Source of the DNA: Paraescarpia echinospica
Taxonomy: Eukaryota; Annelida; Polychaeta; Sabellida; Siboglinidae
DNA length: 64,000 nucleotides
Reading direction: 5' to 3'
Assembly: GCA_020002185.1 (NCBI GenBank)
Contig: CM034533.1
Coordinates: forward strand, 66,491,612-66,555,611
In this document: in pieces, positions 3,631 to 60,128 of the stretch
Position numbering within the stretch: the first letter of the stretch is position 1
How the letters are laid out: each line of letters opens with the position of its first letter
Translations under genes and position numbers: made by a program
Notes under the pieces: generated by a model
The model's input: only the letters and a program-made list of their open reading frames with translations
What the model was told of the DNA's origin: nothing
The model's database searches: none

Positions 3631-4803
<1,173 letters not shown>

Positions 4804-8301: not shown

Positions 8302-11300
8302 ATGTCTGGAAAGGAAGAAAGTACAGAGACGTCGTTTGAAAGGACGAGTAGAGACGTCGGCTTCACCTTGAAGGTATGTGTTGTCTTTAACGTAATTATG
8401 CACGAATTATACATTGAGAATAGTATTTCTTTAAATCATTTTGCATATTAGCTACTATACAGCCATTAAAACAGTAAATACACGGTATGCTAGCATATTT
8501 GCATCCCGCTTTGCCACTGATGTCGAGCCTGAAGTCCTCCAAGCCCACCTTGAGCACATCCTCAAGCTTGAAGTGACATGTGAATCCCTTCCAACAAGAC
8601 GTGATACATACAACAGTTTCCATGTAAAGTGCAACTGTCCCGATCCGTCGGTCTTCATGAACCCGGAAGTGTGGCCTGAAGGTGCCTATGTGAGGTGGTT
8701 TCACGAGAAGCATAGAACACCAAGGCATACAACACATCCTCTATGGATCTCCCAACAACGAACAACGTAAAATCCTGAGCCGTCTCGGCTAGAACTTGCC
8801 AAGGACATAAACGAAAAGCAACGTTCAGATCGCTAAATATATCCAGCTACAATTGTATAATGGAACTTGAAACATGGCTATAACAACAAGCATCACAGAC
8901 ACGTAATTGAACAGTTATTTAACAAATGTGACTTTGTGTGCTTACAAGAAACATGGCTCTCGAAACAGGATTTATGTGGGCTAAACAACATCAATGAAAA
9001 CTTTCATGGAATTGGTAAATCTTGTGTTGATGAAAGAGATGGCATAATATTGAAAAAACTTGGTGGTGTTGCAATATTGTGAAAACTTGACCTTGAAGCA
9101 GGCATTACCCCTCTAAAGTTTGACCTTAACTGGGTTGTTGGTGTCGAATATAATTGTGGCAACAACAAAATTGTAATTTTGTGTGTTTACATGCCATATG
9201 AAAGTTATCAAAATAATGATGAATATCGGGATAAACTTGGCACATTAATATCTATTATAGAAGATTTAGAAACTACGTGTGTACTGGTGGTAGGGGATTA
9301 TAACGCCGACATTTCTGACGAGACTTCGTCATTTGGAAGGTCCCTTATAAACTTCTGCACTGAATACAATCTGGTGCTGTGCAGTAAGCAGTATATATCA
9401 CCTGATTCGTTCACGTACATCATTGATGCATGGGGTAGCACCTCATGGCTAGGTCATTGTATAGCTACACATGATGGTAATGATATGGTAAATGACATTA
9501 GTGTGTGCTATAATATTGCTATCACAGATCATATCCCTGTGATAACTGATGTCAATGTAGACAGTGTGTCAGGTGTAGTCCCCGGTACTAACAATAATAC
9601 TCAGCCACGTCTTAACTGGTCAAGACTTAACAAAGGTTCCATTGATAATTACTGTAGACAGACTGAACTGAAAAACATTGTATTACCTATTGATGCTATT
9701 ATATGTACTGATGTCAACTGCAATGATGAGTCTCATCACAAAGCACTTAATAACATGTATGATAATGTAACCAGGTGTTTAACTGATGCTTGTGGCTGTT
9801 TGTCTACTAACAAACAAGGAAACTATACATGTCGGCCTGGGTGGACTGATTATGTGGCAGATATCCATAAACTTGCTAATGAAGCTTTCCAACTATGGGA
9901 CAGTATAGGTAAACCTAAACAAGGTCCTGTTTTTGAGTTAAAAAAGAAAGCTGATGCTAGATGCAAATATGCAATAAGGTTTATTAAAACACATGAAAAT
10001 GAGTTGAGGCGTGAAGCCCTTGCCAAGAAGATGGCTAACCATACAAATTATAAATTTTGGAAAGAGATCAAAACTATTAACAATAGTAAAATCCCCTTGC
10101 CAACTAATATAAATGGTAACAGTGGTGAAGAAACTATTGTGAATATGTGGATTCAACACTTTCGTGACTTGTTTAATTGTGTAAATAACAGTAGTGCCAA
10201 AACCCTAGCATTTGATGTTAGTTATGAGAGCAGCATTAGAGTGTTACCTGAAGAAGCCAAAGATGCTATAAGAAACCTTGACTGTAACAAGAGTTGTGGC
10301 CTTGATGGTGTGTATGCAGAGCGCCTGAAGTACTGCAGTGAACGCATACTGCCTTTACTGTCAATGTGCTTCACAGGTCTGTTGGTTCATGGCGTACTGC
10401 CAAGTTCTATGATTTCTGTTATATTAGTGCCCATAATCAAGGATAAATCCGGCAAGATAAACAGTAAAGCACTGGCAAGTGTTATGTCTAAAGTTTTTGA
10501 AAAAATCTTGCTCAGCAGAATGGATGACTTTTTAACAACCAGTGACAACCAGTTTGGTTTAAAAAAGAAGCATGGCACTGACATGTGCATTTATGTACTA
10601 AAAGAGGTTATTGCTAAATATCAAGCCTTAAATAGCTGTTTGTTTATGTGTTTTCTTGATGCATCTAAGGCTTTTGACCGTGTAAACCATAGTGTACTTT
10701 TTAAAAAGCTAATAGACAGAGATGTTCCTGGTTACATTGTTAGAATTCTAGTGTTTTGGTATGCGAACCAACAGATGTGTGTAAGATGGGGTAGTCATGT
10801 GTCTGACAGTATTTATGTAAGTAATGGAGTTAGACAAGGAGGTATTTTATCCCCCTATTTGTTCAGTGTTTACGTGGATGGTTTATCCACTGTACTTAAT
10901 AGTTGCAATACAGGATGTTATGTAGGATATAATTGTGTAAATAATATTATATATGCTGATGATCTTGTAGTATTTTGTCCGTCCAGCAGGGGATTACAGA
11001 CCCTTCTCACCGTCTGTGATCAATATGGAGTATCTCATGACATAAGGTACAATGCCAAAAAGAGTATGGTCATGACAATTAGAAACAAGAGTTGTAAGAA
11101 TGTTAAATTTCCAAGTGTTATGCTTGGTAACGAAAAACTATGTGAGGTAGAATCTGTAAAATATTTGGGTCATATAATTTCAAATAGTATGCTAGATGAC
11201 AATGATATATCTAGACAATGTCGCCAGTTGTATGCACAAGGCAACATGATCATAAGAAAATTTCATATGTGTTCAAATGATGTAAAGAAGACATTGTTTA

Positions 11301-11777
11301 CTACTTTTTGCTCACCTATGTATACTGCCCATCTATGGTGGAATTTTCATAACTATGCAATCAGGAAATTGTATGTCTCTTACAACAATATATTTCGAAT
11401 GGTGTTAGGTTATGACAGTTACTGTAGTGCTAGTGAAATGTTTGTTAACAATAATTTACCTAACTGTGCTGCTGTTATTATAAATTTGACATATAGGTTT
11501 ATATGCCGACTGCAGTTCTCAAAAAACATATTGATTTGTAACATTATTAATAGTGACGTGAAATACATGTCAAGAATATGGAAATACTGGTTCAATTCCC
11601 TCTATATACATTTTGTTGACGGGTGATTTTTCATTCTGTACATTGTAACTATTGTTTATAACACAACTATAGAACCATGATAATGTACTTGTATGTTGCA
11701 TGGAGTTTGTGAATAAAGCAATTATTATTATACTATACGTCATATTCTCTCTATCTCTATCTTTCTCTCCCCCCCCC

Positions 11778-11813
<36 letters not shown>

Positions 11814-12435
11814 ATTGACATGGAATATGGGTGGCAGTTATATTGTTTCTACTCTCTAGGCCCATACTAACTTTATGAAAATTGCTGGACACAAATATGT
11901 TGTCTTTCTTCAGGTGGCAGTCTTATTTGTTCTCGTGACGTTGCCGTGTACATTCTCTGCGCCCACTAACAACAAATGTAAGACGCACACGTCGAGTGAA
12001 CTGCACCAGAAATGGCTGGACCTCTACAACACTGGTGAGGCCCATGAGTCGACCTACATCACGCCCGCATTCGCCAGCTCCATCCGGGACCTGCGCTCAA
12101 CTACAGACACGATGGACTCGCACTTGTTCGGCGACCAGAAGTGTCCGACGAATCCGGCAACTCACGATGTGTCCGTGCAGCAACGTTCCATATGTCCGTG
12201 GTACAACGTGCTCAACAAAGACCAGCGGCGCTACCCTAGCGTATTGGCGGAAGCCCGTTGTAAGTGTGACCGCTGTATCGGTGTCGACGGTCTCAGTCAT
12301 TGCGAATCTGTCTACTATAACGTACACGTTCTGCATGTGACGGAACAATGTGACGATGCTGGTTACTTCAAGTGGCAGTCCGGCTGGGTGAAGATACCGG
12401 TCGGCTGTACGTGCGCTCACAGACCGACAGTCTGA
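8302..12435 (+). CDS. IL-17-like cytokine, complete two-exon gene (copy 3)
   Basis: Exon 1 is 8302-8373 (24 codons, donor AAG|GTATGT). Exon 2 is 11914-12435 (acceptor TTTCTTCAG|GTGG). Together they encode 197 residues with the same architecture as copy 2: polar N-terminus, hydrophobic signal segment VAVLFVLVTLPCTFSA, then the IL-17 domain with SICPWYNVLNKDQRRYP, EARCKCDRC and VGCTC. The 3.5-kb intron is long because a LINE inserted in it; copy 2 has an intron of 579 bases. Both signal segment and cysteines are intact, so the gene looks functional. An alternative start is the ATG in the upstream extension of exon 2 at 11875, which would also place a hydrophobic segment at the N-terminus. Confidence 0.85.
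8461..8770 (+). pseudogene. LINE ORF1 protein, C-terminal fragment
   Basis: The frame reads FASRFATDVEPEVLQAHL, later DTYNSFHVKC and then PEVWPEGAYVRWF before a stop. The Y-SF and ELWPEG-VR patterns are typical of the RNA-binding C-terminal region of ORF1 proteins in many LINEs. The 5' part is missing because the element is truncated. Confidence 0.6.
8867..11626 (+). pseudogene. LINE ORF2: endonuclease plus reverse transcriptase, one nonsense codon
   Basis: The endonuclease shows LQETWLS, VVGDYNAD and the ITDHIPV motif. The reverse transcriptase shows CGLDGVYAERLK, FLDASKAFDRVNH (motif A), NGVRQGGILSPYLF (motif B) and IIYADDLVVF (catalytic YADD). A TGA at 9080-9082 interrupts the endonuclease where the context suggests tryptophan; the same frame continues to 11626. 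The usual NYRPI segment before S-VSKVFEK is absent (KDKSGKINSKALASVMSK), suggesting an internal deletion. The start is uncertain because the first endonuclease strand appears frame-disrupted near 8860. This copy is unlikely to be autonomous. Confidence 0.85.
11745..11812. repeat. CT/CA microsatellite in the IL-17 copy 3 intron
   Basis: CTCT and CACA runs just upstream of exon 2, matching in position the longer CT repeat in copy 2. Confidence 0.9.
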
Positions 12436-20105: not shown

Positions 20106-20395
20106 TCCCTGGAGCAAAGCCCATGTTAAAAGAGAGGGATTTGCTCCAGGGCGCTCCAAGGTAAATCCATGCGTACGCTGGAGCGCCCTGGAGCAAATCC
20201 CATGTTAAAAGATAGGGATTTGCTCCAGGGCGCTCCAATGTTAATTAGTGCGTACGCTGGAGCGCCCTGGAGCAAATCCCATGCTAAAAGATAGGGATTT
20301 GATCCAGGGCGCTCCAAGGATAATCAGTTCGTACGCTGGAGCGCCCCGGGAAAATCCCATGTTAAAAGATAGGGATTTTTCCCAGGGCGCTCCAA
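20106..20395. repeat. Array of perfect hairpins in the left foldback arm
   Basis: Repeated units are each a palindrome. One occupies 20180-20236, with a 22-bp stem beginning GGAGCGCCCTGGAGCAAATC and a 13-base loop; others lie at 20259-20315 and about 20338-20393, with a partial one at about 20108-20159. Linkers contain GCGTACGCT and TTAATCAG. Confidence 0.85.
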
Positions 20396-21404
20396 GGTTA
20401 AAGGATAGGAATTTTTCCCCATGTTAAAGCATAGGAGGTTTCCCATATTAAAGGATAGGAGCTATTATCATAAAGGTATACGACCATATTTTGACTTGGA
20501 GGTCCCAGTTTATCCCTACTTGTTTTACCCCTACATAGCCCATGTTAAAGCATAGCAAACTTTCCCCATGTTAAAGGATAGGACATTTCCCCCCTGTTAA
20601 AGCATAGGGGCTAAAGCCTATCTGACCTACAGCTCATAACCACTGACGCACAACATTCATACACCGACCTACGACACATAACCATTACTAAACATTGACT
20701 TACAATTCACAAACACCGACATTCATCATAGGTCAAACTTATTGGCTAGTTTTATTAGGTAGTGATTAAATTCGTGTCTTTTATAAAAACCCGTACTCGA
20801 GACGTATATAGACTTGTTAGTTTGTTGCGAGCGTGAGCGGACACTCCCTGTATTACGTCAAAGCTATCATTGTGATTTGGTTAGCCAACTTTTGTAAGAA
20901 CTATATTGAACTCATGGTGTAAACTGGTATAAACTGGTATTGAACGCTCTATGTGTTGGAAGAACAGTCGGGTATTGACATATAACATTTATACTTACCA
21001 GCCGTATCTCACTTGAGCGTCGTTTGAAAACTGATCGCAAAACTGGTTCCAAACTATTTTGAAGTGATACTCCCTGTCTAAGTGATAACGACTCGGTGGC
21101 CTTGACACTAAAGTCGGCAAACCTCTTTTTTTTAATCAGACGCATAACAAAGTGTAGCGTTATGATAGAACAGTACAGGTGTATTAGCTATCATTTGTAA
21201 GAACTATATCGAACACTGGCTATAAACAAACCGGTATAATTCTTTGACCTGGAACATTAGCTAACATACGACATTTGTACTTACCAGACTTCGTATCAAT
21301 ATCGAAATAGTTAACACTCTTTTGTGAAAAGGTGGTTGGCTCTGAAAAGAACCGTTTAAATTAAAATAAACCTTCAAAAACAACTAAAACTATTAAAACG
21401 TTAT

Positions 21405-21545
21405 GGATGCTCCAAAACATCATCAAAGGGTGCCAAGAAGACTACAACGCTCCAAAAACAGCATCAAAGGGTTCCAAGAAGACTGCAATGCTGCAAAAAC
21501 ACCATCAAAGGGTTCCAAGAAGACTGCAACGCTGTAAAAACAGTA
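21405..21545. repeat. Short tandem repeat of about 41 bp near the foldback loop
   Basis: A unit containing CATCAAAGGGTTCCAAGAAG occurs three times in the left arm but only twice in the mirrored right arm (22320-22410). Confidence 0.8.
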
Positions 21546-23399
21546 GCGAAAGGGGCAAAATAAGTCGTGACGACAACGAATAAAATAAGGCGCCTGGTAA
21601 TGTGTATAATTTCTTTATATAGCAGTTCGATGGAACATAAAGGTCACGTGGGCGTGCCGAAAGATCACCGACTTCAGAGTACAAACGACACATGCGCAGT
21701 CGGTAGATTAGAAAATTCAAGCACGGACTGCAGAGTAAAACCCGCTTTCACCACAGACACATCATGCTATAATGCGATCCGGTATAAACTCGTAATCAAG
21801 GCTCTATGTGTTGGAAAGTCTATGTAACTTGCACAGGGAGTATCACTTCAAAACACTTTGAAAGCAGGCTATCAACTGGACTAAACTTGGTAAGTACAAA
21901 TTGCGTATGACAAATACTGTTACATGACAAAGGGTTTGACCAAAATGTTATACAGATAGCAGGTAGTTTGAGTAATTTACCAGATAAGTAACTGTTTTAT
22001 AATTCCCTATGTTTTAACACAGGACAAATACACGGATGTTTTTCCAACACATAGAGCCTTGATTACGAGTTTATACCGGATCGCATTATAGCATGATGTG
22101 TCTGTGGTGAAAGCGGGTTTTACTCTGCAGTCCGTGCTTGAATTTTCTAATCTACCGACTGCGCATGTGTCGTTTGTACTCTGAAGTCGGTGATCTTTCG
22201 GCACGCCCACGTGACCTTTATGTTCCATCGAACTGCTATATAAAGAAATTATACACATTACCAGGCGCCTTATTTTATTCGTTGTCGTCACGACTTATTT
22301 TGCCCCTTTCGCTACTGTTTTTGCAGCGTTGCAGTCTTCTTGGAACCCTTTGATGGTGTTTTTGCAGCGTTGCAGTCTTCTTGGCACCCTTTGATGCTGT
22401 TTCTGGAGCATCCATAACGTTTTAGCAGTTTTAGTTGTTTTTTAAGGTTTATTTTAATTTAAACGGTTCTTTTCAGAGCCAACCACCTTCTCACAAAAGA
22501 GTGTTAACTATTTCGATATTGATACGAAGTCTGGTAAGTACAAATGTCGTATGTTAGCTAACGTTTCAGGTCAAAGGATTATACCGGTTTGTTTATAGCC
22601 AGTGTTCGATATAGTTCTTACAAATGATAGCTAATACACCTGTACTGTTCTATCATAACGCTTCACTTTTTTACGCGTCTGATTAAAAAAAAGAGATTTG
22701 CCGACTTTAGTGTCAAGGCCACCGAGTCGTTATCACTTGGACAGGGAGTATCACTTCAAAATAGTTTGGAACCAGTTTTGCGATCAGTTTTCAAACGACG
22801 CTCAAGTGAGATACGGCTAGTAAGTATAAATTGTATATGTCAATACCCGGCTGTTCTTCCAACGTTCAATACCAGTTTACACCATGAGTTCAATATAGTT
22901 CTTACAAATGTTGGCTAACCAAATCACAATGATAGCTTTGACGTAATACAGGGAGTGTCCGCTCACGCTCGCAACAAACAAACAAGTCTAGACACGTCTC
23001 GAATACGGGTTTTATAAGACACGAATTTAATCACTACCTAATAAAACTAGCCAATATGTTTGACCTATGATGAATGTCGGTGTTTTTGAATTGTAAGTCA
23101 ATGTTTAGTAATGGTTATGTGTCGTAGGTCGGTGTATGAATGTTGTACGTCAGTGGTTATGAGCTGTACGTCAAATAGGCTTTAGCCCCTATGCTTTAAC
23201 AGGGGGGAAATGTCCTATCCTTTAACATGGGGAAAGTTTGCTATGCTTTAACATGGGCTATGTAGGGGTAAAACAAGTAGGGATAAACTGGGACCTCCAA
23301 GTCAAAATATGGTCGTATACCTTTACGATAATAGCTCCTATCCTTTAACATGGGGAAACCTCTTATGCTTTAACATGGGGAAAATTTCCTATCCTTTAA

Positions 23400-23695
23400 C
23401 CTTGGAGCGCCCTGGGGAAAATCCCTATCTTTTAACATGGAATTTTCCCGGGGCGCTCCAGCGTACGCACTGATTAACCTTGGAACGCCCTGGAGCAAAT
23501 CCCTATCTTTTAATATGGGATTTGCTCCAGGGTGCTCCAGCGTACGCACTGATTAACCTTGGAGCGCCCTGGAGCAAATCCCTATCTTTTAACATGGGAT
23601 TTGCTCCAGGGCGCTCCAGCGTACGCACTGATTAACCTTGGAGCGCCCTGGAGCAAATCCCTCTCTTTTAACATGGGCTTTGCTCCAGGGAACGG
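23400..23695. repeat. Array of perfect hairpins in the right foldback arm
   Basis: Reverse complement of the left array, with about four palindromic units in mirror order. Simpler CTTTAACATGGGG-type subrepeats flank it toward the loop side, as they do in the left arm (20395-20610). Confidence 0.85.
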
Positions 23696-27913: not shown

Positions 27914-28247
27914 TACATCAGTGACAGCAGGGGCTGACTGATGTCGACATATATCAGTGACAGCAGGGGCTGACTGATGTCGACATATATCAGTGACAGC
28001 AGGGGCTGACTGATGTCGACATATATCAGTGACAGCAGGGGCTGACTGATGTCGACATATATCAGTGACAGCAGGGGCTGACTGATGTCGACATATATCA
28101 GTGACAGCAGGGGCTGACTGATGTCGACATATATCAGTGACAGCAGGGGCTGACTGATGTTGACATATATCAGTGACAGCAGGGGCTGACTGATGTCGAC
28201 ATATATCAGTGACAGCAGGGGCTGACTGATGTCGACATATATCAGTG
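27914..28247. repeat. Homogeneous 36-bp satellite (about 9 copies)
   Basis: A 36-bp unit is repeated with almost no variation (one C-to-T change near 28161). Each unit contains ATCAGT and ACTGAT as an inverted pair around GACAGCAGGGGCTG, plus the palindrome GTCGAC. Confidence 0.95.
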
Positions 28248-28893
28248 ACCAGTCGTAACGATCACACTTCGGAAAAGTTCATCGTACACCAACTCCCGAA
28301 AAATGTAAGTGCTCACCATTTTTAATTGATTTAATTTTAAATCTAACATGCATGCAGGGTAAATGCCATGACCACGACATTCGCCTGTATTCACGCAAGA
28401 AATGTTGTCATTGTTGACACGGTGTGGTTCCAGGCTGACATGTGTGACTGTCACACAGAGACTATTGTGGCAGAGATGTGAAGCATCTAGATTCGCTCTT
28501 ATAAATGTTCTCCTGTGGTGCAGCATATAGCTTAACCGGTGTGCCGTGATGGTACGTCTATTGCCACATTGGGCTCAGCACACTGTTGGTTTCCCAAATG
28601 GCGAACATCTTAACGTTTTGTCTGACTATAAGAAAACGTCACCTACACACTTTCTTAAACTTCTCACCTGCTGTTGTCATCATCTCATTGACATGTCAGT
28701 TTAGTGTATCAAATCTAACATCTAATTATCTCTCGTGAAATGCCTCTATGAATGACACCCGTTAATATTTACAAATAGATGCAGGCAGTAATCCGGCTAA
28801 AGGGTCAACTAGCCAAATTGCTGCCAAATACCGTTCCGCTTAGCAAAATCAGCTGAAAATACACCATTTTACTGCAAACAGCTTCTACAATCA

Positions 28894-45907: not shown

Positions 45908-48900
45908 ATGCCACAGAAAGACGATGACAGGTTGTTTGGTGCCATCGCAGCCATTCCACATGATACCCAGCTTAAGGAGGACTTCATTTCTTCCAGTCAA
46001 CGACACAACTCCATTACAATGCCAACAGATGGCAGCACTGTGTCACTGCCACAGAAAGACTCACTTTCATATGATGCACCAACAGACCGAGAAGTATTGG
46101 TGCCTCCAGATGTCAGCACGGTGTCTCCGTTCTCACTGTGGAACTCGTCAACGAGACAGAAGTTGTTGTTGCTTGCCCTTGCACTTGTTGACCTCACGTC
46201 AAACATGTGTCTGTCCGTGCTCGCTCCGTTCTTCCCTGACGAGGTACCATCTCTTTATCACTTCATAGTAAACCACCTTGAGCACATCAAACATGTGTCT
46301 GTCTCCTTTTTTCTTAGCAAGGTACCATCTCTTTTGTGTGTCTGTTTGCTCCATTCTTGATGATGATGTATCATCTCTTTATCACTTTATAGTAAACCAC
46401 TGATAGTTTAATTATAAAGTGCATCCTTTTGTGAAATAACTTCATTTACTTTGATTGTTAGACTGAGTAACTATTAAAAGTCCGAATACCTGTATGCTAA
46501 ACATCTAGAGCTTTCACACGATTTTGATTGAACCCGATAACGAAATGTGTAGTTTGTCTGATGACGTCACCAGATCAAGGTGTTTGTCTGATGACGTCAC
46601 CAGATCAATGTGTAGTTTGTCTGATGACGTCACCAGATCAGCAAAAGTAGAGAAATTGTAGAAATGAAGTACCACGTGTTAGACTTGTAGTGGATATGTT
46701 CAATTTTGTTTCTTGAAAAATACTCATATTTACGTATTACATCATTGTAATATTTACTGACGTACGCAGTACACGCCCCTTTGTGTTGAATGTGAAGATA
46801 TTGTTTGCTTCCAGGCAGCCAAGAAGGGGGTTAGTGACACTACGAGTGGGGTGATATTTGGGGTGTTTGCCCTAGTTCAGTTCATCACATCTCCAATCTT
46901 TGGCAAACTGGTAAGATGTTTATTAGTGATAAAAAACTGATTATTTTAAGTTATGCTGCATTTAATGAATTAATTTGCTAATGTTATGAAATGGAATATG
47001 AAAAAAACAAAAAGATTGGTGCTAACAAATATTGATTAATTAAAATCCCTTTAATATCCCTCATGGAGAACACTGACCCTACTAGTTGACTATCAGTAAC
47101 CCTTTAACCTAAGCCATTTTTTAAAAGTCCTGTTTCCCCATGCAAATCCTGACCAGGTTTAAAAAACAATTTAGCGTCAGTGTGATGCTACATTAATAAA
47201 ATATGTTTAATATAATAATGTAATTTCTTTTGTGCTTAAATCCTCGGAAACCAAGCTCAGATAATATTTTCTAAAACTACCTACAGGAGGCCAAGACTTG
47301 ATTATGTGGCATGACATAGCTATTGTTTACTGGGTTTGGCAGACTTGGGGACTGTCAGGGAAAGTAACGTATTGTGACATTCCTTTCAGCTGCCTATTGT
47401 TGGAGCAAGATTCCTTCTTCTCGCCGGCCAATTCTTTGGAGGTGGATGCATACTTCTCTTTGGGTAAGTGACATCAGTCTAGTCCTCAGGTGGTAGTATT
47501 TACCAGTTCTTTGGAGGTGGATGCATACTTCTATTTGGGTAAGTGACACCAGTCTAGTCCTCAGGTGGTAGTATTTACCAGTTCTTTGGAGGTGGATGCA
47601 TACTTCTCATTGGGTAAGTGACATCAGTCTAGTCGTCAGGTGGTAGTATTTACCAGTTCTTTGGTGGTGGATGCACATTTCTCTTTGGGTAAGTGACATC
47701 AGTCTAGTCCTCAAATGGTAGTATTTACCAGTTCTTTGGAGGTGGATGCATACTTCTATTTGGGTAAATGACACCAGTCTAGTCCTCAGGTGGTAGTATT
47801 TACCTATTATACTTTTCTTTGGGTAAGCGACACCAGTCTAGTCTTCAGGTGGTAGTATTTACCAGTTCTTTGGTGATGGATACATACTTTTCTTTGGATA
47901 AGTGACACCAGTCTAGTCCTCAGGTGGTAGTATTTACCTATTATACTTTTCTTTGGGTAAGTGACACCAGTCTAGTCTTCAGGTGGTAGTATTTACCAGT
48001 TCTTTGGTGATGGATGCATACTTTACAAGATCAAAGACACAGGCAATGGACGAGTTGTACGGGGAGCTGGGAACACCGGAGGGAGAAAGAAAGATTTATA
48101 GAATAGCAAAGGCTCGCGACAAATCGACCAAAGATTTCACACAGATAAGACGGATAAAGGATGGACAAGGAGTGGTTCTATGGGAACAGGACAAGATCAA
48201 GGATCGGTGGAAAGGATATTTCGAAAATCTGCTAAACGTAGAGAACCCGAGTGCAGTCTTTGACGATGGAGTGCCAAATGAAGGCTTAACACCAGGAATT
48301 ATCAGGGAGGAAGTAGAGGTGGCACTGAAAAGGATGAAAACTGGGAAGGCGATGTGACCAGACGAAATTCCAGTGGAGGTCTGGAAGAGTTTGGGAGAAG
48401 AGGGGGTCGATATGCTGTGGAATCTGATGCAGAAGATATACGTACAAGAGAAAATGCCAGAGGAATGGAGAGACAGTGTCATCGTGCCTATCTTCAAGGA
48501 GAAGGGAGACATCCAGGATTGTGGCAATTACAGGGGCATCAAGTTGATGTCGCACACCATGAAGGTTTGGGAAAGGGTAATTGACAGAAGGCTGAGGGAA
48601 GAGACAAGCATAGGTGAGGAGCAGTTCGGTTTTATGCCGGGCAAAAGAACAACGGACGCCATATTTGCAGCAAGGCAGTTGATGGAGAAACACTGGGAGA
48701 TGCAGAAGGAACTGCACATGGTCTTCATTGATTTAGAGAAGGCATATGATAGAGTGCCACGACAGGATGTTTGGAGGTGTATGCGGGAGCAGGGCGTGAC
48801 TGAAAAGTATGTACGTCTTGTAAAAGACACATATGAAGACGCAAGGACGCAAGTCAAGAGCAGTGTAGGACTGACAGGCAAGACCACCGTTAGAGTGGGG

Positions 48901-51900
48901 CTGCACCAGGGGTCCTCACTGAGTCCTTACCTGTTTGACTTGATTATGGATGTGTTGGGCCGGGGCATCAAAGAACAGCCCCCCTGGTGTATGCTGTTTG
49001 CAGACGACATCGTGCTGTGCAGTACCAGAAGAGAGGAGGTGGAAAGGAAGCTCGAGGAATGGAGAAGTGCAATGGAAGAGCGAGGACTAAAGATTAGTAG
49101 GAAGAAGATGGAATACCTGAGGTGCAACAAAAACTATGACCTAGAGATCCGGTTACAGGGCGAGACAGTGAAAAGAGTGAAGACATTCAAATATCTAGGA
49201 TCAACATTGGCAGATGATGGAGAATTTGATGCGGAAGTCACTCATAGAGTGCAGAGCAGGTGGAAGAACTGGAAGAGAGTATCTGGAGTGCTGTGTGACA
49301 GAAAAATGAACGTGAAGATCAAGGGAAAAGGTTACAGGACAGTGGTAAGGCCAGCACTGATGTACGGGGCGGAGACATGGGCGGCAAAGAAGACACAGGA
49401 AAAGAAGTTGGATGTCGCAGAATTGCGAATGCTACGATGGATGTGCGGAGTCACAAAGATTGAAAAGATAAGAAACGAAAGAATCAGAGGGAAAACGAAA
49501 GTGGGGGAAATATCAAAGAAAGTCCAAAAAAGTAGGTTGAGATGGTATGGACACGTGATGAGAAGAGAGGAGGATTATGTAGGAAGGAGAGCGATGGGAA
49601 TGGACGTGCAAGGGAAGAGGAGGAGAGGAAGGCCGAAGAGGAGGTGGTTAGACAGTGTGAGGGCAGATCTCAGGGAGAAGGGACTGTCGGGGGAGGAAGT
49701 GTACGACCGAGCGACATGGAGGCGAATGTCATCATACATCGACCCCACATAAAAGTGGGACAAAGATGAAGAGGAAGAAGAAGAAGAAGATGGAGAACAC
49801 TGACCCTACTAATTGACTACCAGTAACCCTTTAACCTAAGCCATTTCTTTAAAGCCCTGTTTCCCCATGCAGTACGTGACCAGGTTTAAGAAACAATTTA
49901 CCGTCGGTATGATGCTACATTCATTAATGATGTTGAATAATAATGTAATTTCTTTTGCGCTTAAATCCTCGGAAACCAAGCTCAGATAATATTTTCTAAG
50001 ACTACCTACAAGAGGCCAAGACTTGTTATGTGGCATGACATAGCTATTGTCTACTGGGTTTGGCAGACTTGGTGACTGTCAGGGAAAGTAACACATTGTG
50101 ACATTCCTTTCAACTGCCTATTGTTGGAGCAAGATTCCTTCTTCTCGCCGGCCAATTCTTTGGAGGTGGATGCATACTTCTCTTTGGGTAAGTGACATCA
50201 GTCTAGTCCTCAGGTGGTAGTATTTACCAGTTCTTTGGAGGTGGATGCAATACTTCTATTTGGGTAAGTGACATCAGTCTAGTCCTTAGGTGATAGTATT
50301 TACCAGTTCTTTGGAGGTGGATACATACTTCTCTTTGGGTAAGTGACATCAGTCTAGTCCTCAGGTGGTAGTATTTACCAGTTCTTTGGAGGTGGATGCA
50401 ATACTTCTATTTGGGTAAGTAAATCAGTCTAGTCCTCAGGTGGTAGTATTTACCAGTTCTTTGGAAGTGGATGCATACTTCTATTTGGGTAAGTGACACC
50501 AGTCTAGTCCTCAGCTGGTAGTATTTACCAGTTCTTTGGTGGTAAATGCATAGTTCTCTTTGGGTAAGTGACCCCAATCTAGTCCTCAGTTGGTAGTATT
50601 TAACAGTTCTTTGGTGGTAAATACATACTTCTCTTTGGGTAAGTAACACCAGTCTAGTCCTCAACTGGTATTATTTACCAGTTCTTTGGTGGTAAATGCA
50701 TAGTTCTCTTTGGGTAAGTGACCCCAATCTAGTCCTCAGTTGGTAGTATTTACCAGTTCTTTGGTGGTAAATACATACTTCTCTTTGGGTAAGTAACACC
50801 AGTCTAGTCCTCAACTGGTATTATTTACCAGTTCTTTGGTGGCGGATACATACTTCTCTTTGGGTAAGGGACACCAGTCTTGTCCTCAGCTGGTAGTATT
50901 TACCAGTTCTTTGATGGTGGATGCATACTTCTCTTTGGGTAAGTGACACCAGTCTTGTCCTCAGCTGGTAGTATTTACCAGTTCTTTGGTGGTGGATGCA
51001 TACTTCTCTTTGCGTAAGTGACACCAGTCTTGTCCTCAGCTGGTAGTATTTACCAGTTCTTTGGTGGTGGATGTGTCTTCCACTTTGCGTAAGTGACACC
51101 AGTCTTGTCCTCACCTAGTAGTATTTACCAGTTCTTTGGTGGTGGATGCATACTTCTCTTTGGGTAAGTGACACCAGTCTTGTCCTCAGCTGGTAGTATT
51201 TACCAGTTCTTTGGTGGTGGATGTGTCTTCCACTTTGCCTAAGTGAGCAGGTTGTCTATATGGCACGTTTTGACTATGACAAGTTGTGACAAGCGTGATT
51301 CTCTCCTCCATACCTTATGGTGACCAGTTTAAAACCGAAATAACCTTTGAATTTGGCAAAACATTACAAATTACAAAACAATTTGTTGATTCGCTCAACA
51401 GAGGCATTAATTAATTGCATTAATTTAACATTTAATTCAACAATGTACATATAATTGAACACACCGATGACAGCCATTTTGTTGTTAGACATTTTGATCG
51501 AAGGATGTTTCCATTTACTGGTAGGACAGGCAGTGAATCTTGGTACAGCTCTGCTAGAGTCAATATGTTTACATGCTAACGTGAAGGTTGTGGCTTGCAG
51601 TCCCCTAGACTATATTCCCAGCAGCGATGAGAACACAACACTGTTTACCGTCATGTGTTTTGTGGTGAGGGGCTTTGCTGCGACCGGATTTTCAGCGTCC
51701 AACACTGCCAGCTTCGTAATCACAGCCAAAGCCTTCCCCAATAACGTTGCCACTGTCTTTGGGATTCTGGAGATGGCTGGTGGTCTTGGCTTCACGATTG
51801 GACCAGGTATAGGAGGCGTCCTCTTTCAGGTGGGTGCAGCAATTTAATAAGTGAACCAGTTTTTATAAACATATCTTTACGTCATGTACAGCTGCCCAGT

Positions 51901-54900
51901 GATGCGTGAAGTTGGTTGTGACTGCATGCCCACTGTCACCTTTTAGGTATCCACTAAATGTCCATCTAATCATTGAAGCACAGCATCCAGTTACCTTTGT
52001 GTCTCTAGACGGGTTACCCCAGTTGATGTATGTTATAACTTGTAATGTTGTATCAATTAGCCTGTTTAAACAAATCAAGACAAATACTGGTCAAGCAAGA
52101 CTTTATCATGTGATGTTGAAATACTACTGAATATCTGAACTGCATGTTGAAGACTGTAATAGAAGATGAAGAAGATGTATAATCACATTATTGAGGAGCC
52201 AAATGAACTCTATAATCAGAAACACCCATCAACCAGTGGATTGGTTTAATTTAGATTTTGTGAAACCTTACTTCCATTTTCAGATCTCCGGGTTTGCGCT
52301 GCCTTTCGTGTGTCTGGGGGCTCTCATGATGTTGTCTACGCCTGTGTGTGCGTTGTGTCTCCAGCAACAACAGTTTGGTTAGTTTATGTTGCTACATGCA
52401 CTTGTGGTGTGTGTGTGTGTGTGTGTGCGCGTGCATGTGTGTGTGTGTATGAGTGTTTGTGTGTGTGCGCACAGGCACATGCGGGTGTGCATGTTTGTGC
52501 TTGATGTCACCAGCACCAACAGTTAGAAAATTACATACAGAGAACACCTTTCCCAAACCTCTTGTACAACCATGCATAGTGGATAGAGGATAAAACATGG
52601 ACATTGTTAGCATATTCCACTGACCTTGATTGTGTATCTACAGAAATACATGTAAAAATGCACAACTAATCACGCATTTGTGAAAGCAGACAGATTGTGC
52701 GTGTTCACTGTCAGTAATTGTGCTATGTTTCCCCAGGAGACATCCACAGTCTGGCCACAGTGCCTCTGCCCAGTCTCCTGCGGATTCCCGCGGTCCTCAT
52801 TGTGTGTCTCGCAGTCATGCTTGGCGCCCTCGTGTGGTCCGTCATTGAACCAATACTGGAGCCCCACCTGGTGGTGGTGAGTAGACTTTTCATTATCAGC
52901 CAACAAGGTTCGTACAGGGCATGGAAATTCTTGAATAGCGTGAAATTTCATTACTTAAAAACCGAGGCCTGCAATTTTCTAAATGGCACGGAAAAGCCTG
53001 AAATTCCATAATATTCAGTTCTCTGCCTATGGAGGTGCCACTGTGGAAACAAGTTTTAAAAGATAACAAATACTGTAATGGTGGATTATAACTGCTGCAG
53101 TTGATTTATTCCATGGTTGGGTTAAGCTAGTACAGCTATAGTGTAATTATTCTTAAAATGTATGTTTAGTGTAATTATTATGCATAAATGTAAGTTGGTT
53201 TTGACATGGATTTTTAAAGAAAGCATGGAAAGAGCATAAATTTTATAGTTACTGAAGTATATAAACTCTGGCCGAGTTTTTTGCCCTGGTAGATCTGTCA
53301 TAGTGGAGTATTCATGTTGTCTGCTGTGGTAAACCTCAGCCCCATGTACCTGGGGGTTTCTTGTTCTAGTTTGAACTCAGTCCCATGTACCTGTGTTTGT
53401 TGTTGCAGTTTAACCTCAGTTCCATGTACCTGTATTTGTTGTTGCAGTTTAACGTCAGTCCCATGTACCTGTGTTTGATGTTGCAGTGTGACCTCAGTCC
53501 CATGTACCTGTGTTTGTTGTTGCAGTTTGACCTCAGTCCCATGTACCTGTGTTTGTTGTTGCAGTTTGACCTCAGTCCCATGTACCTGTGTTTGTTGTTG
53601 CAGTTTGACCTCAGTTCCATGTACCTGTATTTGTTGTTGCAGTTTAACCTCAGTCCCATGTACCTGTGTTTGTTGTTGCAGTTTGACCTCAGTCCCATGT
53701 ACCTGTGTTTGTTGTTGCAGTTTGATCTCGTTCCCATGTACCTGTGTTTGTTGTTGCAGTTTGACCTCAGTCCCATGTACCTTGGCCTCATCTTCCTCCT
53801 AATGGCTGCCTTCTATGCTTTCTCATCGCCCTTGTGGGGCTATGTCGCAGATAAACTGGTGAGAGTTGCTCACCCGGTCACTCAGTAATCTCTGGACAGT
53901 ATTGACACATGTCACTAACACACGTGATATCTTGCCAGTTCTAAGGCATGCCACTAACACATTTGTCAGTGATTGTTATATACTTCAGATATATGTCACC
54001 TTTGACAATACTAACGTGTCATTGACACACTTTTCAATGGCTGTTGTTTACTTTTAATATCTGTGATATCTTGACAGCACTAACACGCATCACTAACACA
54101 TTTCTTAATTACTCATATACTTCAGATATCTGCCATCTCTTGACAATACTAATATGTGTCACCAACACACTTCATAATAACTGTCAAATATTTTACATGA
54201 GTAGTACAGGTGTGCACACCTACCATACATATATGTATGTCATCTATTGACATGTCACTAATACACTTATCAATGATTTATATTTATTGCTGATTTATAA
54301 ATTACGCAGGCTACAGAAATTGATTTGAGAGGTGAGCCATAAGTTGGTTCTCTCGTGTGTTATCCTTTGTATTCGTTCTCTCTGTGATGACTTTCACATT
54401 CGCAATGTTTTCATAATCTTTGATTGTTTGGTATAACGTATTGTCTTGTGTTGTGTTGTTGCATTGAACAAATGATGCAGTTGTTGATTCAACACAACTA
54501 CACAAGCACCTGATGTTGTAGGCTGATGCAGCTATCATGCTCGTGTTTGGCTTTCTATTTTCTGGGCTGGGCCTGCTTCTGCTGGGGCCGTCGCCTCTCT
54601 TTGGGTTTGACCCACTTTACAAGTAAGTGGTGACACCAGTGGAGACCAACTACACAAATAGGTTAGACCAATTATGTGACGTCTGGTGTTGTTCTGTGTG
54701 ATGTCAGTTCATCTGCAATGTGCGATGTTGATTGTTCTGTACTGTGTCATGTCAGCTGTTCTGTGGTGTGTGATGTCTGTTGTCCTGTGGCATGTGATGT
54801 TTGTTGTTCAATGTATTTTGATGTATTTTGTTCTGTGCAGAGAATAACTTGTTCTGTGCAGTGTAATATATTGTTCTGTGCACTTTGAACATGTGATGCA

Positions 54901-57900
54901 TGTTATGTGATGTATGTTATGTGATGTATGTTATGTGATGTTTGTTATTCTATGATGGATTATGTTGGTCGTTTTGTGCTTGTAATGTCTGCTTTCTGTG
55001 TGATGTTCATTGTTCTGTCCTGTGTGATGTTGTCTTCTGTGATGTTTGTTGTCCTGTGTGCTGTCTGTCCTGTGTGATGTATGTTGTGATGTATTTTGTG
55101 ATGTATGTTGTGATGTATGTTGTGATGTTTGTTGTGATGTATGTTGTGATGTATGTGGTGATGTTTGTTCTGATGTTTGTTGAGATGTATGTTTTGATGT
55201 ATGTTGTGATGTATGTTGTGATGTTTGTTGAGATGTATGTTTTGATGTGTGTTGTGATGTATGTTGAGATGTATGTTGTGATGTATGTGGTGATGTATGT
55301 TGTTATGTATGTTGTGATGTTTGTTGTGATGTATGTGCTGCCATGTTCCAGTGAGCTCTGGCTGAATATGCTGGCACTCGTCGTTCTGGGTGTTTCTGTC
55401 AGTCTTGCTGTGGTTCCAACGTTTGTGAAGATCATCAGTGCTGCCAGGTAATTCCTTCTTCACTGACAGCCCACTTCAGACTGCAGTCTCTCATTACCCT
55501 GCTCATTAAATCACATAGAACTTTTTAACTGTTTCATTTTTTTAAACATTTATCAGTAGTAAAGGGAGGCGGTCTGTTCCTCTGCCCTGAATTAGCCGCC
55601 GTAGTAATTTGTAACAGGAAGTCTGCCCTGTTAAACGCGGGGAAATTGTTGAACATCAAAGGGTTTTTGCGGTTAACTCAGCCCGCCTCAGTATTATTGC
55701 CAATGAAGCTTGTTTTGAAATTGGATGTTTTGTTTACCATTTGAAAGTGCTCAGGGGTGTATCTTCCAAATTGTGAACGTTGTTACGGGCTTACTAAACA
55801 CAATTTGGTGGGCAGTATACCTTCAACATAGTTATTATAGTCTTAAGAACATTATAGTAATTAATAAATGAAAAACTAGGACAGACTGCCTCCTTTTAAT
55901 GTGGACATAGTCCAGGAAGCTTCTGTTGGCTCTTGGACACAAACACCTTAAAGTAGGAATTCAGACACAATAGTTGTGAGCTTCATTCAACAAAAAAGAT
56001 ACTGAGTGTGTCACAAAATCGAGTGTAAGTATTAATAAATTAATAAATTGGCGGTACCCGATTTGACATAGCAAGTTATAGGTTCAGGTGCACTAGGATT
56101 TGGAGTGAACGAGAGACATAACGTGACATCCGATATGTATGTATGAGAAGCCAACTGGCATTCCCATTTAATACATCAACAATAATAAACAAAAGCGGTT
56201 CAGTGATAGTTGACCAACCGTTACTATGCTGACATTATATTTATAACACTATACATTGTACTCAACGAGTATGCATCCAAATACGAAATTACATGGGAGA
56301 CAATTTAAACAGCTGGTCACTTACATGAAGACGGGTATACACCGTTGTAAGTCTATGAACTGTATCCAATGAATGTCTCGTGATGTGCGAATGTCTACGT
56401 TCGCATCGCCATTGGTCGCGTTCGACGAGATGTCAGGACGAAGTCGAAAGTTGCTCAGCGTTCGGCGAACGAATTCACGTAGATGAAAGCAGGCGACTCG
56501 GGCAATCAAGTAGACGGTAGATTTGCTTTGTCGATCCCACGCGAATCACCAGGCGACAACACGAAAACGATGTCACGACATCGGCGATGTCGAGAAGGTC
56601 TGTCACGGAGTCTGTGTTACGACAACCAGCAGACGAAACGGTGGTGGCCTCGCATTCGAAGATCACGTCAAAAACGGAACTGCAGTCGGTTATCGCTGTC
56701 TTCTTCAACGCGTCAGAAGTGCTGCATCTCACAACTAATCAGTACTGTTGAAATCGTAGAAGTATTTACTACAGGCGTTGGGTGGACACACGTTTCAGCC
56801 CAATTCCTGGAGACGAGAGTGCATCACTTTCTTCTGCTCAAATGTTCGTCTGGCCTCGAATGGCCGTCCTGCCCTTATATAGCTTGATGGCCGGAAGTTA
56901 GTCTGACCAATTACAACACTTAATACAAATTAAAGTCGCTTCAAAAACTGGCTCCCGAAACCATTCACACTTCGAAGCAATCCATTCAACTCGCTGAGTT
57001 TAAAATATATTTTGCGAACTAAACGTATGGCTATATAAGTGCTCATTCAATCTTTAACTTACATGAATTACTTACATAATTAATATCACTGGATTCCCTG
57101 TATCGAGCCGGATACCACAATATTCATCGTACATTCCAACTCTCATGAATTAATCCATAATTTTAATAAAACGCACTATTCATAAGCTCCGTGTGACCCT
57201 AGTGTTTTTCACACCTACATTTCTGTAAACAACTTTTATAAGTTCATAATATAATCTTTTTATAACCACAACATAAGTAGTTTGACAGGTCACCATATTA
57301 CCAGTCATGTTAAATAATTTCTACAGGTACCAAATTTGGTATACGTAACCGTAGAATTAATGGTGTACGCTACAAATGAAATAAATTAAATCTGACTCGT
57401 CGGCAGTTAAAACGTTACACGCCTTAATCGCCAGAGGGCACAAGCGTATACCTCCGCGACAATACATACCAGAGATGGCAGCACCATCCCATCAACCATA
57501 CTATGTATACAAAACCACTGTTCTAAAGCCTGATTAAATTCTATACAAACCACTTTGTGACAGAGTGTTTCAAGTTATATGTGCATCATCAGATAGTCGA
57601 TATTATTCCTGTGATACATTACAAATGCCAACCGAAATGAGCCCTTAGACCTGTGTTCATTGTGTGTGTTGCTGTGTTGTAGGAAGGCAGGACTGGATGA
57701 TGGTATGTCTCTCTACTCCAGCATTGCAGGGCTCTGGGGATCCATGTACGCTCTAGGGTAGGCTCACTCACACGTCTCACTTCACTCCCCCTCCCTCTTC
57801 TATTCTCTCCTTACCTCCCTCCCCATCTCTGCCACCCTTCCCTTTCCTCTCTCCCTCCCCATCTCTGCCACCCGTCCCTTTTCTCTCTCCCTCCCCATCT

Positions 57901-60128
57901 CTGCCACCCTTCCCTTTTCTCTCTCTCTCCCCATCTCTGCCACCCTTCCCTTTTCTCTCTCCCTCCCCTTCTCTGCTTCCCCTCCCCTTCTCTGCCACCC
58001 CTCCCTTTTCTCTCTCCCTCCCCATCTCTGCCACCCTTCCCCTTTCTCTCTCCCTCGCCTTCTCTGCCACCCTTTTCTCTCTCCCTCCCCATCTCTGCCA
58101 CCCTTCCCTTTTCTCTCCCTCCCCTTCTCTGCCACCCCTCCCTTTTCTCTCACCCTCCCAATCTCTGCCACCCCTCCCTTTTCTCTCTCCCTCCCCTTCT
58201 CTGCCACCCCTCCCTTTTCTCTCTCCCCATCTCTGCCACCCCTCCCTTTTCTCTCTATCTCCCCATCTCTGACACCCCTCCCTTTTTTCTCTCTCTCCCC
58301 ATCTCTGCCACTCCTCCCTTTTCTCTCTCCCTCCCCATCTCTGCCACCTCTCCCTTTTCTCACTCCCACCCAATCTCTGCCACCTCTCCCTTTTCTCTCT
58401 CCCTCCCAATCTCTGCCACCCCTCCCTTTTCTCTCTCCCTCCTAATCTCTGCCACCCCTCCCTTTTCTCTCTCCCTCCCAATCTCTGCCACCCCTCCCTT
58501 TTCTCTCTCCCTCCCAATCTCTGCCACCCCTCCCTTTTCTCTCTCCCTCCCAATCTCTGCCACCCCTCTCTTTTCTCTCTCCCTCCCCTCCCTTTTCTCT
58601 CTCTCTCCCCTCCCTTTCCCTGCTTCAATTTTGCATCTCTCTCGCTCTATACTCATTCCTCTATCTCCTTCCCTCTCTTCCCTTATCTACTCTCCACCTT
58701 CTCTCTCTACCCATCTCTACCCTCTGTCCGTTCCTCCGTCACTCCCCCTTCTCTCTATCTCCCTCCATCTCTCCTCCCATTTCTCTCTCTCCACCCTCTC
58801 CCCCTCTCTCTACCCTCTCTCTTCTCTGCCCCATCCCTGTCATGTTCTACCATAGCACCCTGCCCTGTCATGTTATACCATGGCACCCAGCCCTGTCATG
58901 TTCTACCATGGCACCCTGCCCTGTCATGTTCTACCATGGCATGCTGCCCTGTCATGTTCTACCATGCCACCCTGCCCTGTCATGTTCTACCATGGCATCC
59001 TGCCCTGTCATGTTCTACCATGGCACCCTGCCCTGTCATGTTCTACCATGGCACCCTGTCCTGTCATGTTCTACCATGGCATCCTGCCCTGTCATGTTCT
59101 ACCATGGCACCCTGCCCTGCCATGTTCTACCATGGCACCCTGCCCTGTCATGTTCTACCATGGCATCCTGCCCTGTCATGTTCTACCATGGCATCCTGCC
59201 CTGTCATGTTCTACCATGGCACCCAGCTCTGTCATGTTCTACCATGGCATCCTGCGCTGTCATGTTCTACCATGGCACCCTGCCCTGTCATGTTCTACCA
59301 TGTCATCCTGCCCTGTCATGTTCTACCATTGCACCCTGCCCTGTCATGTTCTACCATGGCATCCTGCCCTGTCATGTTCTACCATGGCATCCTGCCCTGT
59401 CATGTTCTACCATGGCACCCTGCCCTGTCATGTGCTACCATTGCATTCTGCCCTGTCATGTTCTACCATGGCATCCTGCCCTGTCATGTTCTACCATGGC
59501 ACCCTGCCCTGTCATGTTCTACCATGGCACCCTGCCCTGTCATGTTCTACCATGGCATCCTGCCCTGTCATGTTCTACTATAGCATCTTGCCCTGTCATG
59601 AATTTGAATTTCTCTTGACATTGGCCTTCCAAATCACAATCTAGCGGTAGTCATCTAAAGAAGTTTGCTAATAGCTAGCTAAATGCAACAAGACAAAAAT
59701 ATAAATTGAGAAACAAATAAAAAGAATAACAGTTTCAATGATCCAGTCTTCCAGTCTAATGAATCTTTTCTCATACATTTTTCTTCTAGGTGCCATGTCT
59801 GTCACAGGTATTGGCGATCATGGCCCTTCAAACTACTCAGTTGTTTGTCTTTTGTAGCAGCTCTCCTACGCTCCTTCCAAACCATGTTAACAGACTATTC
59901 AGTATTTTTATTCTCTGACATTCTTTGTAATTTCCCCTGGATCTTTCCTGTTGTTACAAGATGTTCTAACTATTGCTTTTTCATTATGTGGCCTGTACAT
60001 TATGCCATACACGTGACATGATGTGTCCTTACAGAGACTTCCTGGGACCAACCATTGGCGGCGTGTTGTTTGACATCGTGGGATTTGCATGGACCGTCAC
60101 CTATGTAGCCATTGCTTGCTTCGTCATG
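45908..60128 (+). CDS. SLC18B1: SLC18B1-like major facilitator transporter (11 exons recognised)
   Basis: Exons: 45908-46243, 46815-46910, 47390-47463, 51601-51829, 52284-52377, 52737-52876, 53760-53858, 54522-54622, 55352-55447, 57683-57757, 60035-60128. All borders have AG/GT consensus and the phases join into 478 residues without a stop. Vertebrate SLC18B1, a vesicular polyamine transporter related to the vesicular amine transporters, is of similar length. Diagnostic segments are NMCLSVLAPFFPDEAAKKGV (TM1 and loop), CFVVRGFAATGFSASNTASF, AKAFPNNVATVFGILEMAGG, YLGLIFLLMAAFYAFSSPLW, LAVVPTFVKIISAARKAGLD and FLGPTIGGVLFDIVGFAW. The N-terminus is a long Ser/Thr-rich cytoplasmic tail. The GTG at 45890 is in frame but the first ATG is 45908; an upstream acceptor at 45857 suggests a separate 5' untranslated exon. 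The terminal exon after 60128 is not certain. Confidence 0.88.
46545..46640. repeat. Three tandem units carrying TGACGTCA in intron 1
   Basis: A unit of 30-33 bp containing GTTTGTCTGATGACGTCACC occurs three times, giving perfect CRE palindromes at 46562-46569, 46592-46599 and 46625-46632. Possible intronic enhancer; function is inferred only. Confidence 0.7.
47430..48022. repeat. 75-bp array containing exon 3 end and splice donor (block 1)
   Basis: Beginning within exon 3 of the transporter, a 75-bp unit repeats. It includes 32 exon bases (starting TTCTTTGGAGGTGGATGC), the donor GTAAGT and intron sequence ending TTTACCAG. Donors occur at 47464, 47539, 47614 and 47689 in exact 75-nt steps, then in degenerate, shortened units. 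The array is cut by the LINE at 48023. Confidence 0.9.
48023..49789 (+). mobile_element. RTE-like LINE, 5'-truncated, in intron 3 of the transporter gene
   Basis: It starts inside the 75-bp array and ends with a GAAGAAGAAG tail. It carries most of an ORF2 but no endonuclease. The 3' end joins directly to the second copy of the exon 3 block. Confidence 0.85.
48026..49752 (+). pseudogene. LINE reverse transcriptase, one nonsense codon
   Basis: The frame begins TRSKTQAMDELYGELGTPEG and continues with KDRWKGYFENLLNVE, PDEIPVEVWKSLG, DCGNYRGIKLMSHTMKVWE, MVFIDLEKAYDRVPR (motif A), GLHQGSSLSPYLFDLIMD (motif B) and MLFADDIVLC (catalytic FADD). The C-terminus has RLRWYGHVMRRE and YDRATWRRM. A single TGA at 48355-48357 interrupts the frame just before PDEIP, where glycine is expected. 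The rest is open for 459 codons, so the insertion is not very old. Confidence 0.85.
49790..51240. repeat. Second copy of the exon 3 block with its 75-bp array (block 2)
   Basis: 49790-50190 duplicates 47063-47465 including intron 2 sequence and exon 3. It then continues into a longer array of about 14 units. Many units keep an AG before and GTAAGT after the 32-base exon piece. Confidence 0.9.
50114..50187 (+). pseudogene. Duplicate of transporter exon 3 with a destroyed acceptor
   Basis: The same 74-base length and reading frame as 47390-47463 (LPIVGARFLLLAGQFFGGGC and following). The acceptor is CCTTTCAA instead of CCTTTCAG, so normal splicing into it should fail. The donor remains intact. 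Confidence 0.8.
52405..52505. repeat. (GT)n microsatellite adjoining an exon
   Basis: A GT-rich run starting about 30 bases after the donor at 52378. Confidence 0.9.
53331..53759 (+). repeat. 39-bp array of splice acceptors before exon 7 of the transporter
   Basis: Each unit contains TTGTTGTTGCAG followed by the first 22 bases of exon 7 (TTTGACCTCAGTCCCATG and four more). Acceptor AG dinucleotides end at 53369, 53408, 53447, 53486, 53525, 53564, 53603, 53642, 53681, 53720 and 53759, in exact 39-base steps. The reading frame of exon 7 is open through all units, reading FDLSPMYLCLLLQ repeatedly. Confidence 0.95.
54910..55345. repeat. 12-bp repeat TGTGATGTATGT before exon 9 of the transporter
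   Basis: Imperfect repeats of TGTGATGTATGT and TGTGATGTTTGT run up to the acceptor at 55350-55351. A looser TTCTGTG/GATGT repeat extends upstream to about 54680. Long frames on both strands are artefacts. Confidence 0.9.
55450..57680. other. Intron 9 of the transporter; no gene recognised
   Basis: Frames at 56321-56887 on both strands have no identifiable motif. No transposon domain was found. Confidence 0.5.
57770..58620. repeat. 36-bp pyrimidine-rich minisatellite just after exon 10
   Basis: About 23 copies of a C/T-rich unit containing CCATCTCTGCCACCC and TTTTCTCTCTCCCT. The array starts about 15 bases after the donor of exon 10. The 283-codon minus-strand frame (12-residue GREKREGWQRLG repeats) is a shadow of the array. 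Confidence 0.92.
58841..59605. repeat. 28-bp minisatellite with ACCATGGC in each unit
   Basis: About 27 units of 28 bp containing CATGTTCTACCATGGCA and CCTGCCCTGT. Because 28 is not a multiple of three and no unit contains a stop on the + strand, all three + frames are open for about 240-260 codons. Not a gene. Confidence 0.95.
59790..60025 (-). mobile_element. LINE C-terminal remnant next to exon 11
   Basis: Related to 5881-6125. The minus strand reads VVWRAMIANTCDRHGT near its end and RPHNEKAIVRTSCNN upstream. It ends about 10 bases before the exon 11 acceptor. Confidence 0.5.

Follow-up and report, generated by a model that had tools for sequence, protein, structure and literature searches.

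The 3′ splice site of intron 6 in an SLC18B1-like transporter gene of the siboglinid annelid Paraescarpia echinospica is repeated in tandem. The same kind of array is present in two further tandem copies of the gene on the same contig (the gene in the window is referred to as copy A, the others as copies B and C), and in C, the exons of which are intact, the reading frame of the units is lost. Judging from sequence comparison, we consider it very probable that the array is a minisatellite that arose through duplication of the boundary, that the last acceptor is the one mainly used, and that the upstream copies are intronic and have no coding role. A previous sequence-only reading of the same stretch of 64,000 nucleotides (the window) had proposed either a length-variable protein made by acceptor choice or a harmless array in which the last acceptor is always taken; the latter is the better supported of the two options, with use of the last acceptor as a predicted feature.

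The host gene and its repeated boundary

The gene model comprises eleven exons between positions 45908 and 60128, all on the forward strand, with ten GT-AG introns and 478 residues without a stop. Exon 1 (from the ATG) spans 45908–46243 and is followed by exons 2 (46815–46910), 3 (47390–47463), 4 (51601–51829), 5 (52284–52377), 6 (52737–52876), 7 (53760–53858), 8 (54522–54622), 9 (55352–55447), 10 (57683–57757), and 11 (60035–60128), while exon 12, the last, falls outside the window, near C3:66561246 in this genome. Exon 7, FDLSPMYLGLIFLLMAAFYAFSSPLWGYVADKL, holds the start of a membrane segment, as judged by eye. The earlier assignment of the gene to SLC18B1-like transporters is borne out by a match to solved SLC18B1 (9d7u) with an E value of 1.8e-81 over residues 51–469 of the 478, which amounts to near full-length similarity to this MFS protein, and many database homologues carry the name SLC18B1-like. 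The frame of exon 4 alone scored 33.0 bits against MFS_1, just under the cut-off of 33.4. The best database matches come from Ridgeia piscesae (85%) and Lamellibrachia satsuma (84%, covering 26% of the query), so that amphioxus, considered as the source, was rejected in favour of a siboglinid. A siboglinid-like protein of 535 aa, on a contig of 2538 bases, matches the query at 83%. We take the source tag of this last protein, ‘lgn’, to stand for Logan, and its contig to be probably cDNA.

At the boundary between intron 6 and exon 7, TRF reports an array at 53333–53782 with a period of 39, 11.5 copies, 91% matches, 0% indels, and a score of 749. Its eleven acceptor-like AG ends lie at 53369, 53408, 53447, 53486, 53525, 53564, 53603, 53642, 53681, 53720, and 53759, in the constant 39-nt steps that had been described previously, and the accompanying statement that no unit contains a stop and that all keep the frame of exon 7 is confirmed for all ten inter-AG units, each of which is 39 nt long. 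The ten decoy units, GTGTTTGTTGTTGCAG, occupy 53370–53759 on the forward strand, and each joins a copy of the first 23 nt of exon 7 to a copy of the last 16 nt of the intron, so that the units span the exon–intron boundary. The repetition of the boundary had thus been recognised correctly, with the small correction that 23 exon bases, not 22, match the unit consensus. At the 5′ edge lies a degenerate first unit (53331–53369, forward strand), with a similar edge unit in B and C; it ends in acceptor 1, which accordingly reads TTCTAG, not TTGCAG. The exon-proximal acceptor, with its AG at 53758–53759 on the forward strand, is the one that we infer to be used, as it gives the exon 6–7 junction found in 63 of 68 homologues.

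Over the 20 nt that precede them, acceptors 2 to 11 match the commonest form exactly or with one base changed, which suggests that position, not local strength, decides among them. A branch-like yTnAy motif is found at −35 of 8 of the 11 acceptors. Nine of the ten units of copy A contain another AG, 11 nt from the unit start, which had gone unmentioned in the sequence-only reading; the exception is the last decoy unit (53721–53759, forward strand), which reads CTCGT. Loss of this AG was considered as a mark of the true acceptor and rejected, given that B and C retain CTCAG at that place. Similarly, only at the true acceptor of A is such a motif, TTGAT at −35, separated from the site by a stretch free of AG, an arrangement that is not common to B or C, so such an AG-free stretch would not be required at the true acceptor. 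An Rfam scan gave no matches at the gathering score.

Three tandem copies and their homologues

A 22-base exon-derived word has 12 matches in the genome, grouped in three clusters on one contig, and a protein search of the host genome, with 16 exon matches, recovered the gene in three tandem copies and, in addition, one distant match. The distant match (L031, 49% identity) has no array at the corresponding acceptor, whose position was judged by eye and of which five TRF rows fall short. The 11 exons of copies A, B, and C correspond to one another and do not differ in length; each copy has 1434 nt of open frame, GT-AG at its ten introns, and an exon 12 that is likewise open, and boundary arrays on both the donor and the acceptor side are present in all three. 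Acceptor units number 10 in A, 6 in B, and 8 in C, so copy number differs between the gene copies. All units measure 39 nt in A and likewise in B, and those of C measure 39, 35, 35, 35, 35, 38, 40, and 40 nt; an AG stands in front of six of the eight units of C, and two units end in CAA. The units are open in frame into exon 7 in 10 of 10 cases in A, in 6 of 6 in B, and in none of 8 in C, such that a frame readable from every acceptor is not kept across the gene copies.

The exons of C are nevertheless well preserved. Pairwise dN/dS is 0.39 for A–B, 0.52 for A–C, and 0.46 for B–C. The introns differ by 11 (A–B), 18 (A–C), and 13 (B–C) indel events. At this rate, about 5, 11, and 8 indels, respectively, would be expected in the 1434 nt of exon, compared with none observed; simple repeats in the introns inflate this rate, and the comparison leaves out introns 3 and 8–11, the array part of intron 6, and, for A–C and B–C, intron 1 (length difference over 400). 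On the C branch alone, we estimate about 17.5 nonsynonymous and 10 synonymous changes (P = 0.19). Together, these values suggest that the exons of C are intact and without visible decay, with C-specific constraint by itself not significant. If C is expressed and functional, as its exons suggest, it would pass over the decoy sites, since none of its units is in frame. As the signals in A and B closely resemble those of C, both copies would most simply pass over their decoys too.

Other parts of the gene also differ between the copies. Exon 3 and about 330 bp upstream of it are duplicated at 49785–50187 with 93% identity (as seen in the window interval 47062–51223), and the duplicate sits behind a reverse-transcriptase ORF at 48358–49752. 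The second copy of exon 3 itself (50114–50187, forward strand), in which the acceptor AG has become AA, is presumably dead. B and C have a single full-length exon 3 each, so this duplication is specific to copy A. The introns of the gene are rich in minisatellites. For instance, a 12-bp array, TGTGATGTATGT, located just 5′ of exon 9 comprises 22 copies in A (55073–55336), at least 67 in B (L009 9090–9901, cut off by the end of the locus), and 82 in C (L010 8132–9115), which represents a strong intronic copy-number turnover between paralogues.

Among the 68 database homologues, 63 have 0–2 extra residues at the exon 6–7 junction. Of the rest, P0066 has 5 extra residues, P0054, P0056, and P0062 do not have the stretch around the junction, and P0061, a predicted protein fused to a reverse transcriptase, has no alignment there. 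Thus, a repeat insertion is absent from every one of these homologues that aligns at the junction, and the 535-aa siboglinid-like protein likewise shows no extra junction residues. Searches for the repeat peptide found none among 8000 and 3597 scored candidates, a result of little weight for a database that does not hold this species' protein. As for P0061, it comes from Lamellibrachia satsuma and joins the reverse transcriptase to this transporter from its exon 8 on; it is probably a gene-prediction artefact that stems from a retroelement in intron 7.

Reading frame, homogenisation, and origin of the array

An open frame across the whole array is not a rare outcome of chance. A random 39-mer taken from the gene region has no stop in a given frame in 57.3% of cases, and the array itself is stop-free in three of six frames; if the openness of the array is counted as one event and not as eleven, the chance of the whole array being in frame and open is 1/3 (for length) × 0.573, or about 0.19. 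Exact unit length was considered as evidence of coding selection and rejected, given that spacing is also exact in a 28-bp array at 58835–59600, where 28 is not divisible by three, and in a 36-bp array at 27917–28249, and that the acceptor array of C is not exact. With the frame not maintained in C, chance and homogenisation appear to account for the constant unit length in A and B. Of the two causes previously suggested for strict unit length, selection and homogenisation, selection is not needed.

The differences among the units can be read in two directions. The ten decoy units of A hold 14 differences from the consensus, of which 13 are nonsynonymous and one is synonymous. Neutrality predicts 69–80% nonsynonymous changes, giving a probability of 0.04 to 0.20 for 13 or more, and at the gene's own constraint this probability falls to 0.01 to 0.03; when the ten distinct changes are each counted once, P is 0.38 under neutrality and 0.05–0.12 under constraint. 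This pattern provides weak evidence that points away from coding constraint. On the other hand, in A and B together, the exon-derived part of the units differs at 15 of 368 positions, compared with 3 of 256 in the intron-derived part (Fisher P = 0.049; for A alone, 11 exon-derived versus 3 intron-derived differences, P = 0.17). The lower number in the intron-derived part could mean that the decoy splice signals are kept, which counts against the view that they are passed over. Copy C does not follow this pattern: its units vary in length within the intron-derived part, and many of its decoy signals are lost or shortened.

The donor side of exon 3 carries a second boundary array, with 75-bp units made of the last 36 nt of the exon and the first 39 nt of the intron, which begins with GTAAGT. 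This array lies at 47428–48024 and continues, after the retroelement and the exon 3 copy, at 50152–51223, both on the forward strand. Copy A has 20 donor-like units, B has 27, and C has 5, with GGTAAG in 16, 21, and 4 of them, respectively, and their spacing is inexact (59, 74, and 76 occur). When exon 3 is read on into the unit, an in-frame TAA follows directly, which indicates that boundary arrays arise in this gene without coding potential, and the exon 7 array thus belongs to a class that is independent of coding. A possible enrichment of arrays at exon edges was also considered and rejected, as two of nine arrays in the gene overlap exons and random placement gives two or more in about 91% of trials; the nine were listed by hand, with nested TRF rows merged and with the 2-bp array at 52403–52467 and the rows inside or adjoining listed arrays omitted.

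Regarding the age of the acceptor array, the degenerate edge unit is found in all three gene copies, with A and B one base apart and C further away, and this similarity suggests that the array is older than the gene duplication. A T4 variant occurs in copy C both at the last decoy acceptor and at the true one, which fits copying across a live splice boundary. Signs of gene-specific homogenisation are modest, as the observed value was reached in 170 of 5000 label shuffles, and units differ more within C (5.18) than between genes (3.73).

The rest of the window holds further repeated structures. An IL17-like frame at 4219–4803 (with a Pfam IL17 match) and a closely similar one at 11860–12435 flank a reverse-transcriptase ORF at 9083–11626. 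Two 79-bp arrays at 20107–20401 and 23396–23690 have consensus units that are reverse-complementary by eye, and similar ORFs at 20912–21187 (reverse strand) and 22631–22918 (forward strand) face each other between them, such that the interval 20107–23690 resembles a fold-back element.

Splice-site choice and related systems

Taking exon definition, scanning, and branch-site rules as general background, we propose the following sequence of events. A tandem duplication spanning the intron 6–exon 7 boundary would have started the array before the tandem duplication of the gene, and unequal exchange or slippage would then have altered the units in each gene copy and, at least in A and B, made them more uniform. 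Exon 7 may be defined as a unit together with its own donor, in which case the spliceosome would take mainly the exon-proximal acceptor, and the upstream copies would remain in the intron and be removed with it. With the donor of exon 7, the last acceptor gives an exon of 99 nt, and the others give exons of 138–489 nt. The near-identity of the local signals leaves their strength unable to account for such a choice, and simple first-AG scanning would not predict use of the last acceptor; both points count against this proposal.

If the decoys of A and B were really used, the result would be a ladder of transporters with a loop growing in 13-residue steps, the array being kept in A and B and given up in C, which we consider very unlikely. 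The regulated form of this idea, in which acceptor choice in A and B yields transporters with 0 to 10 extra copies of FDLSPMYLCLLLQ between helices 7 and 8, and C has lost the trait, appears highly unlikely. Its attraction is that all decoys of A (10) and B (6) are in frame and stop-free, that the local signals of decoys 2 to 10 are within one base of the true site, and that intron-derived sequence varies less than exon-derived sequence among the units of A and B; decoy use in either copy would yield peptides containing MYLCLLLQFDLSP. Against this, C has intact exons yet not one unit in frame, the 13:1 ratio suggests an array unconstrained as protein, the insertion occurs in none of the homologues aligning at the junction, and the two peptide searches were empty, within the limits of that database. 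Furthermore, alignment with solved SLC18B1, with helix limits set by eye, suggests that the insertion would hit a short loop between helices. The length-variable protein of the sequence-only reading is thus not supported.

A milder possibility, which overlaps with the explanation that we prefer, is that a small share of transcripts splices to the decoys without function; in A and B, such products would be in frame and escape nonsense-mediated decay, and those of C would be destroyed. Eleven near-identical acceptors, most of them with the yTnAy motif at −35, could plausibly compete, and, in contrast to the donor array, A and B have no feature that would eliminate the product; nonetheless, RT-PCR results from amphioxus reportedly suggest regular splicing (PMC3087553), and we regard such leakiness as possible, if rather doubtful. 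It might also be asked whether the unit number, or the whole array, was mis-assembled. Short arrays are prone to mis-sizing in assemblies, and a globin array was reportedly mis-assembled in the amphioxus draft (PMC3087553). However, the array is found at three loci with different unit variants, and the flanks in intron 6 share 93.6% (B) and 89.9% (C) identity with those of A, so this is not one locus assembled three times, and an artefact seems extremely unlikely.

Arrays of similar anatomy have been described in amphioxus as ‘mirage’ minisatellites, in Adh3, the globin genes BflGb6 and BflGb9, TnC, and PGBD5; according to the accessible parts of these reports, they occur on either side of the intron, vary in copy number, and reportedly leave splicing undisturbed (PMC3087553, PMC3902484). 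The globin authors noted that boundary copies could act as cryptic sites (PMC3087553). The tubeworm arrays can be classed as mirage minisatellites, as their units span the boundary and their copy number differs between paralogues; as far as the accessible descriptions go, they also resemble the amphioxus arrays in that many copies carry an AG or a GT and the genuine boundary stands at the edge. By analogy, the reported lack of an effect on splicing in amphioxus suggests that the last acceptor is mainly used in the tubeworm too. There are also differences, as the host is a siboglinid annelid, the array is known here from DNA and not through RT-PCR, one gene has both donor and acceptor arrays, in three paralogues, and the acceptor unit keeps the frame in A and B.

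Other systems are less close. NAGNAG and other in-frame tandem acceptors are likewise closely spaced and could give in-frame variants, but the cases consulted lie 3–9 nt apart, in contrast to ten steps of 39 nt with the frame lost in one paralogue. Intron gain through internal tandem duplication (Rogers; Zhuo et al. 2007; Gao and Lynch 2009, as cited in PMC3087553) has duplicated boundary segments as its proposed raw material, as in the tubeworm array, whereas the tubeworm gene shows no new intron or exon. In C. elegans, the intronic minisatellite CeRep25B has been tied to alternative splicing by enrichment (PMC4039745); like the tubeworm array it adjoins splicing decisions, and unlike it, in the available part of the report, its units are not described as copies of splice boundaries. 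By analogy, that link might count against the main reading proposed here. In the earthworm metallothionein gene, intronic minisatellites and exon-4 duplications absent from the transcript have been reported, and the accessible part of the source does not describe a boundary array.

Our literature search, which covered mostly papers available without subscription, found no annelid boundary minisatellites and found mirages described only in cephalochordates. Thus, as far as we have seen, this is the first annelid mirage and the first in a new phylum within the literature searched. It extends these minisatellites to an annelid in which one gene carries both donor and acceptor arrays and the paralogues differ in copy number and frame, and it illustrates that a seemingly designed in-frame ladder can be a product of chance and homogenisation. 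With 10, 6, and 8 upstream units, the three paralogues offer a natural test of how splice sites are chosen when they are nearly identical, and of the cost of such arrays. Even on a weaker reading, if ten near-identical acceptors are always skipped, the gene would represent a natural assay of how the spliceosome chooses the last site.
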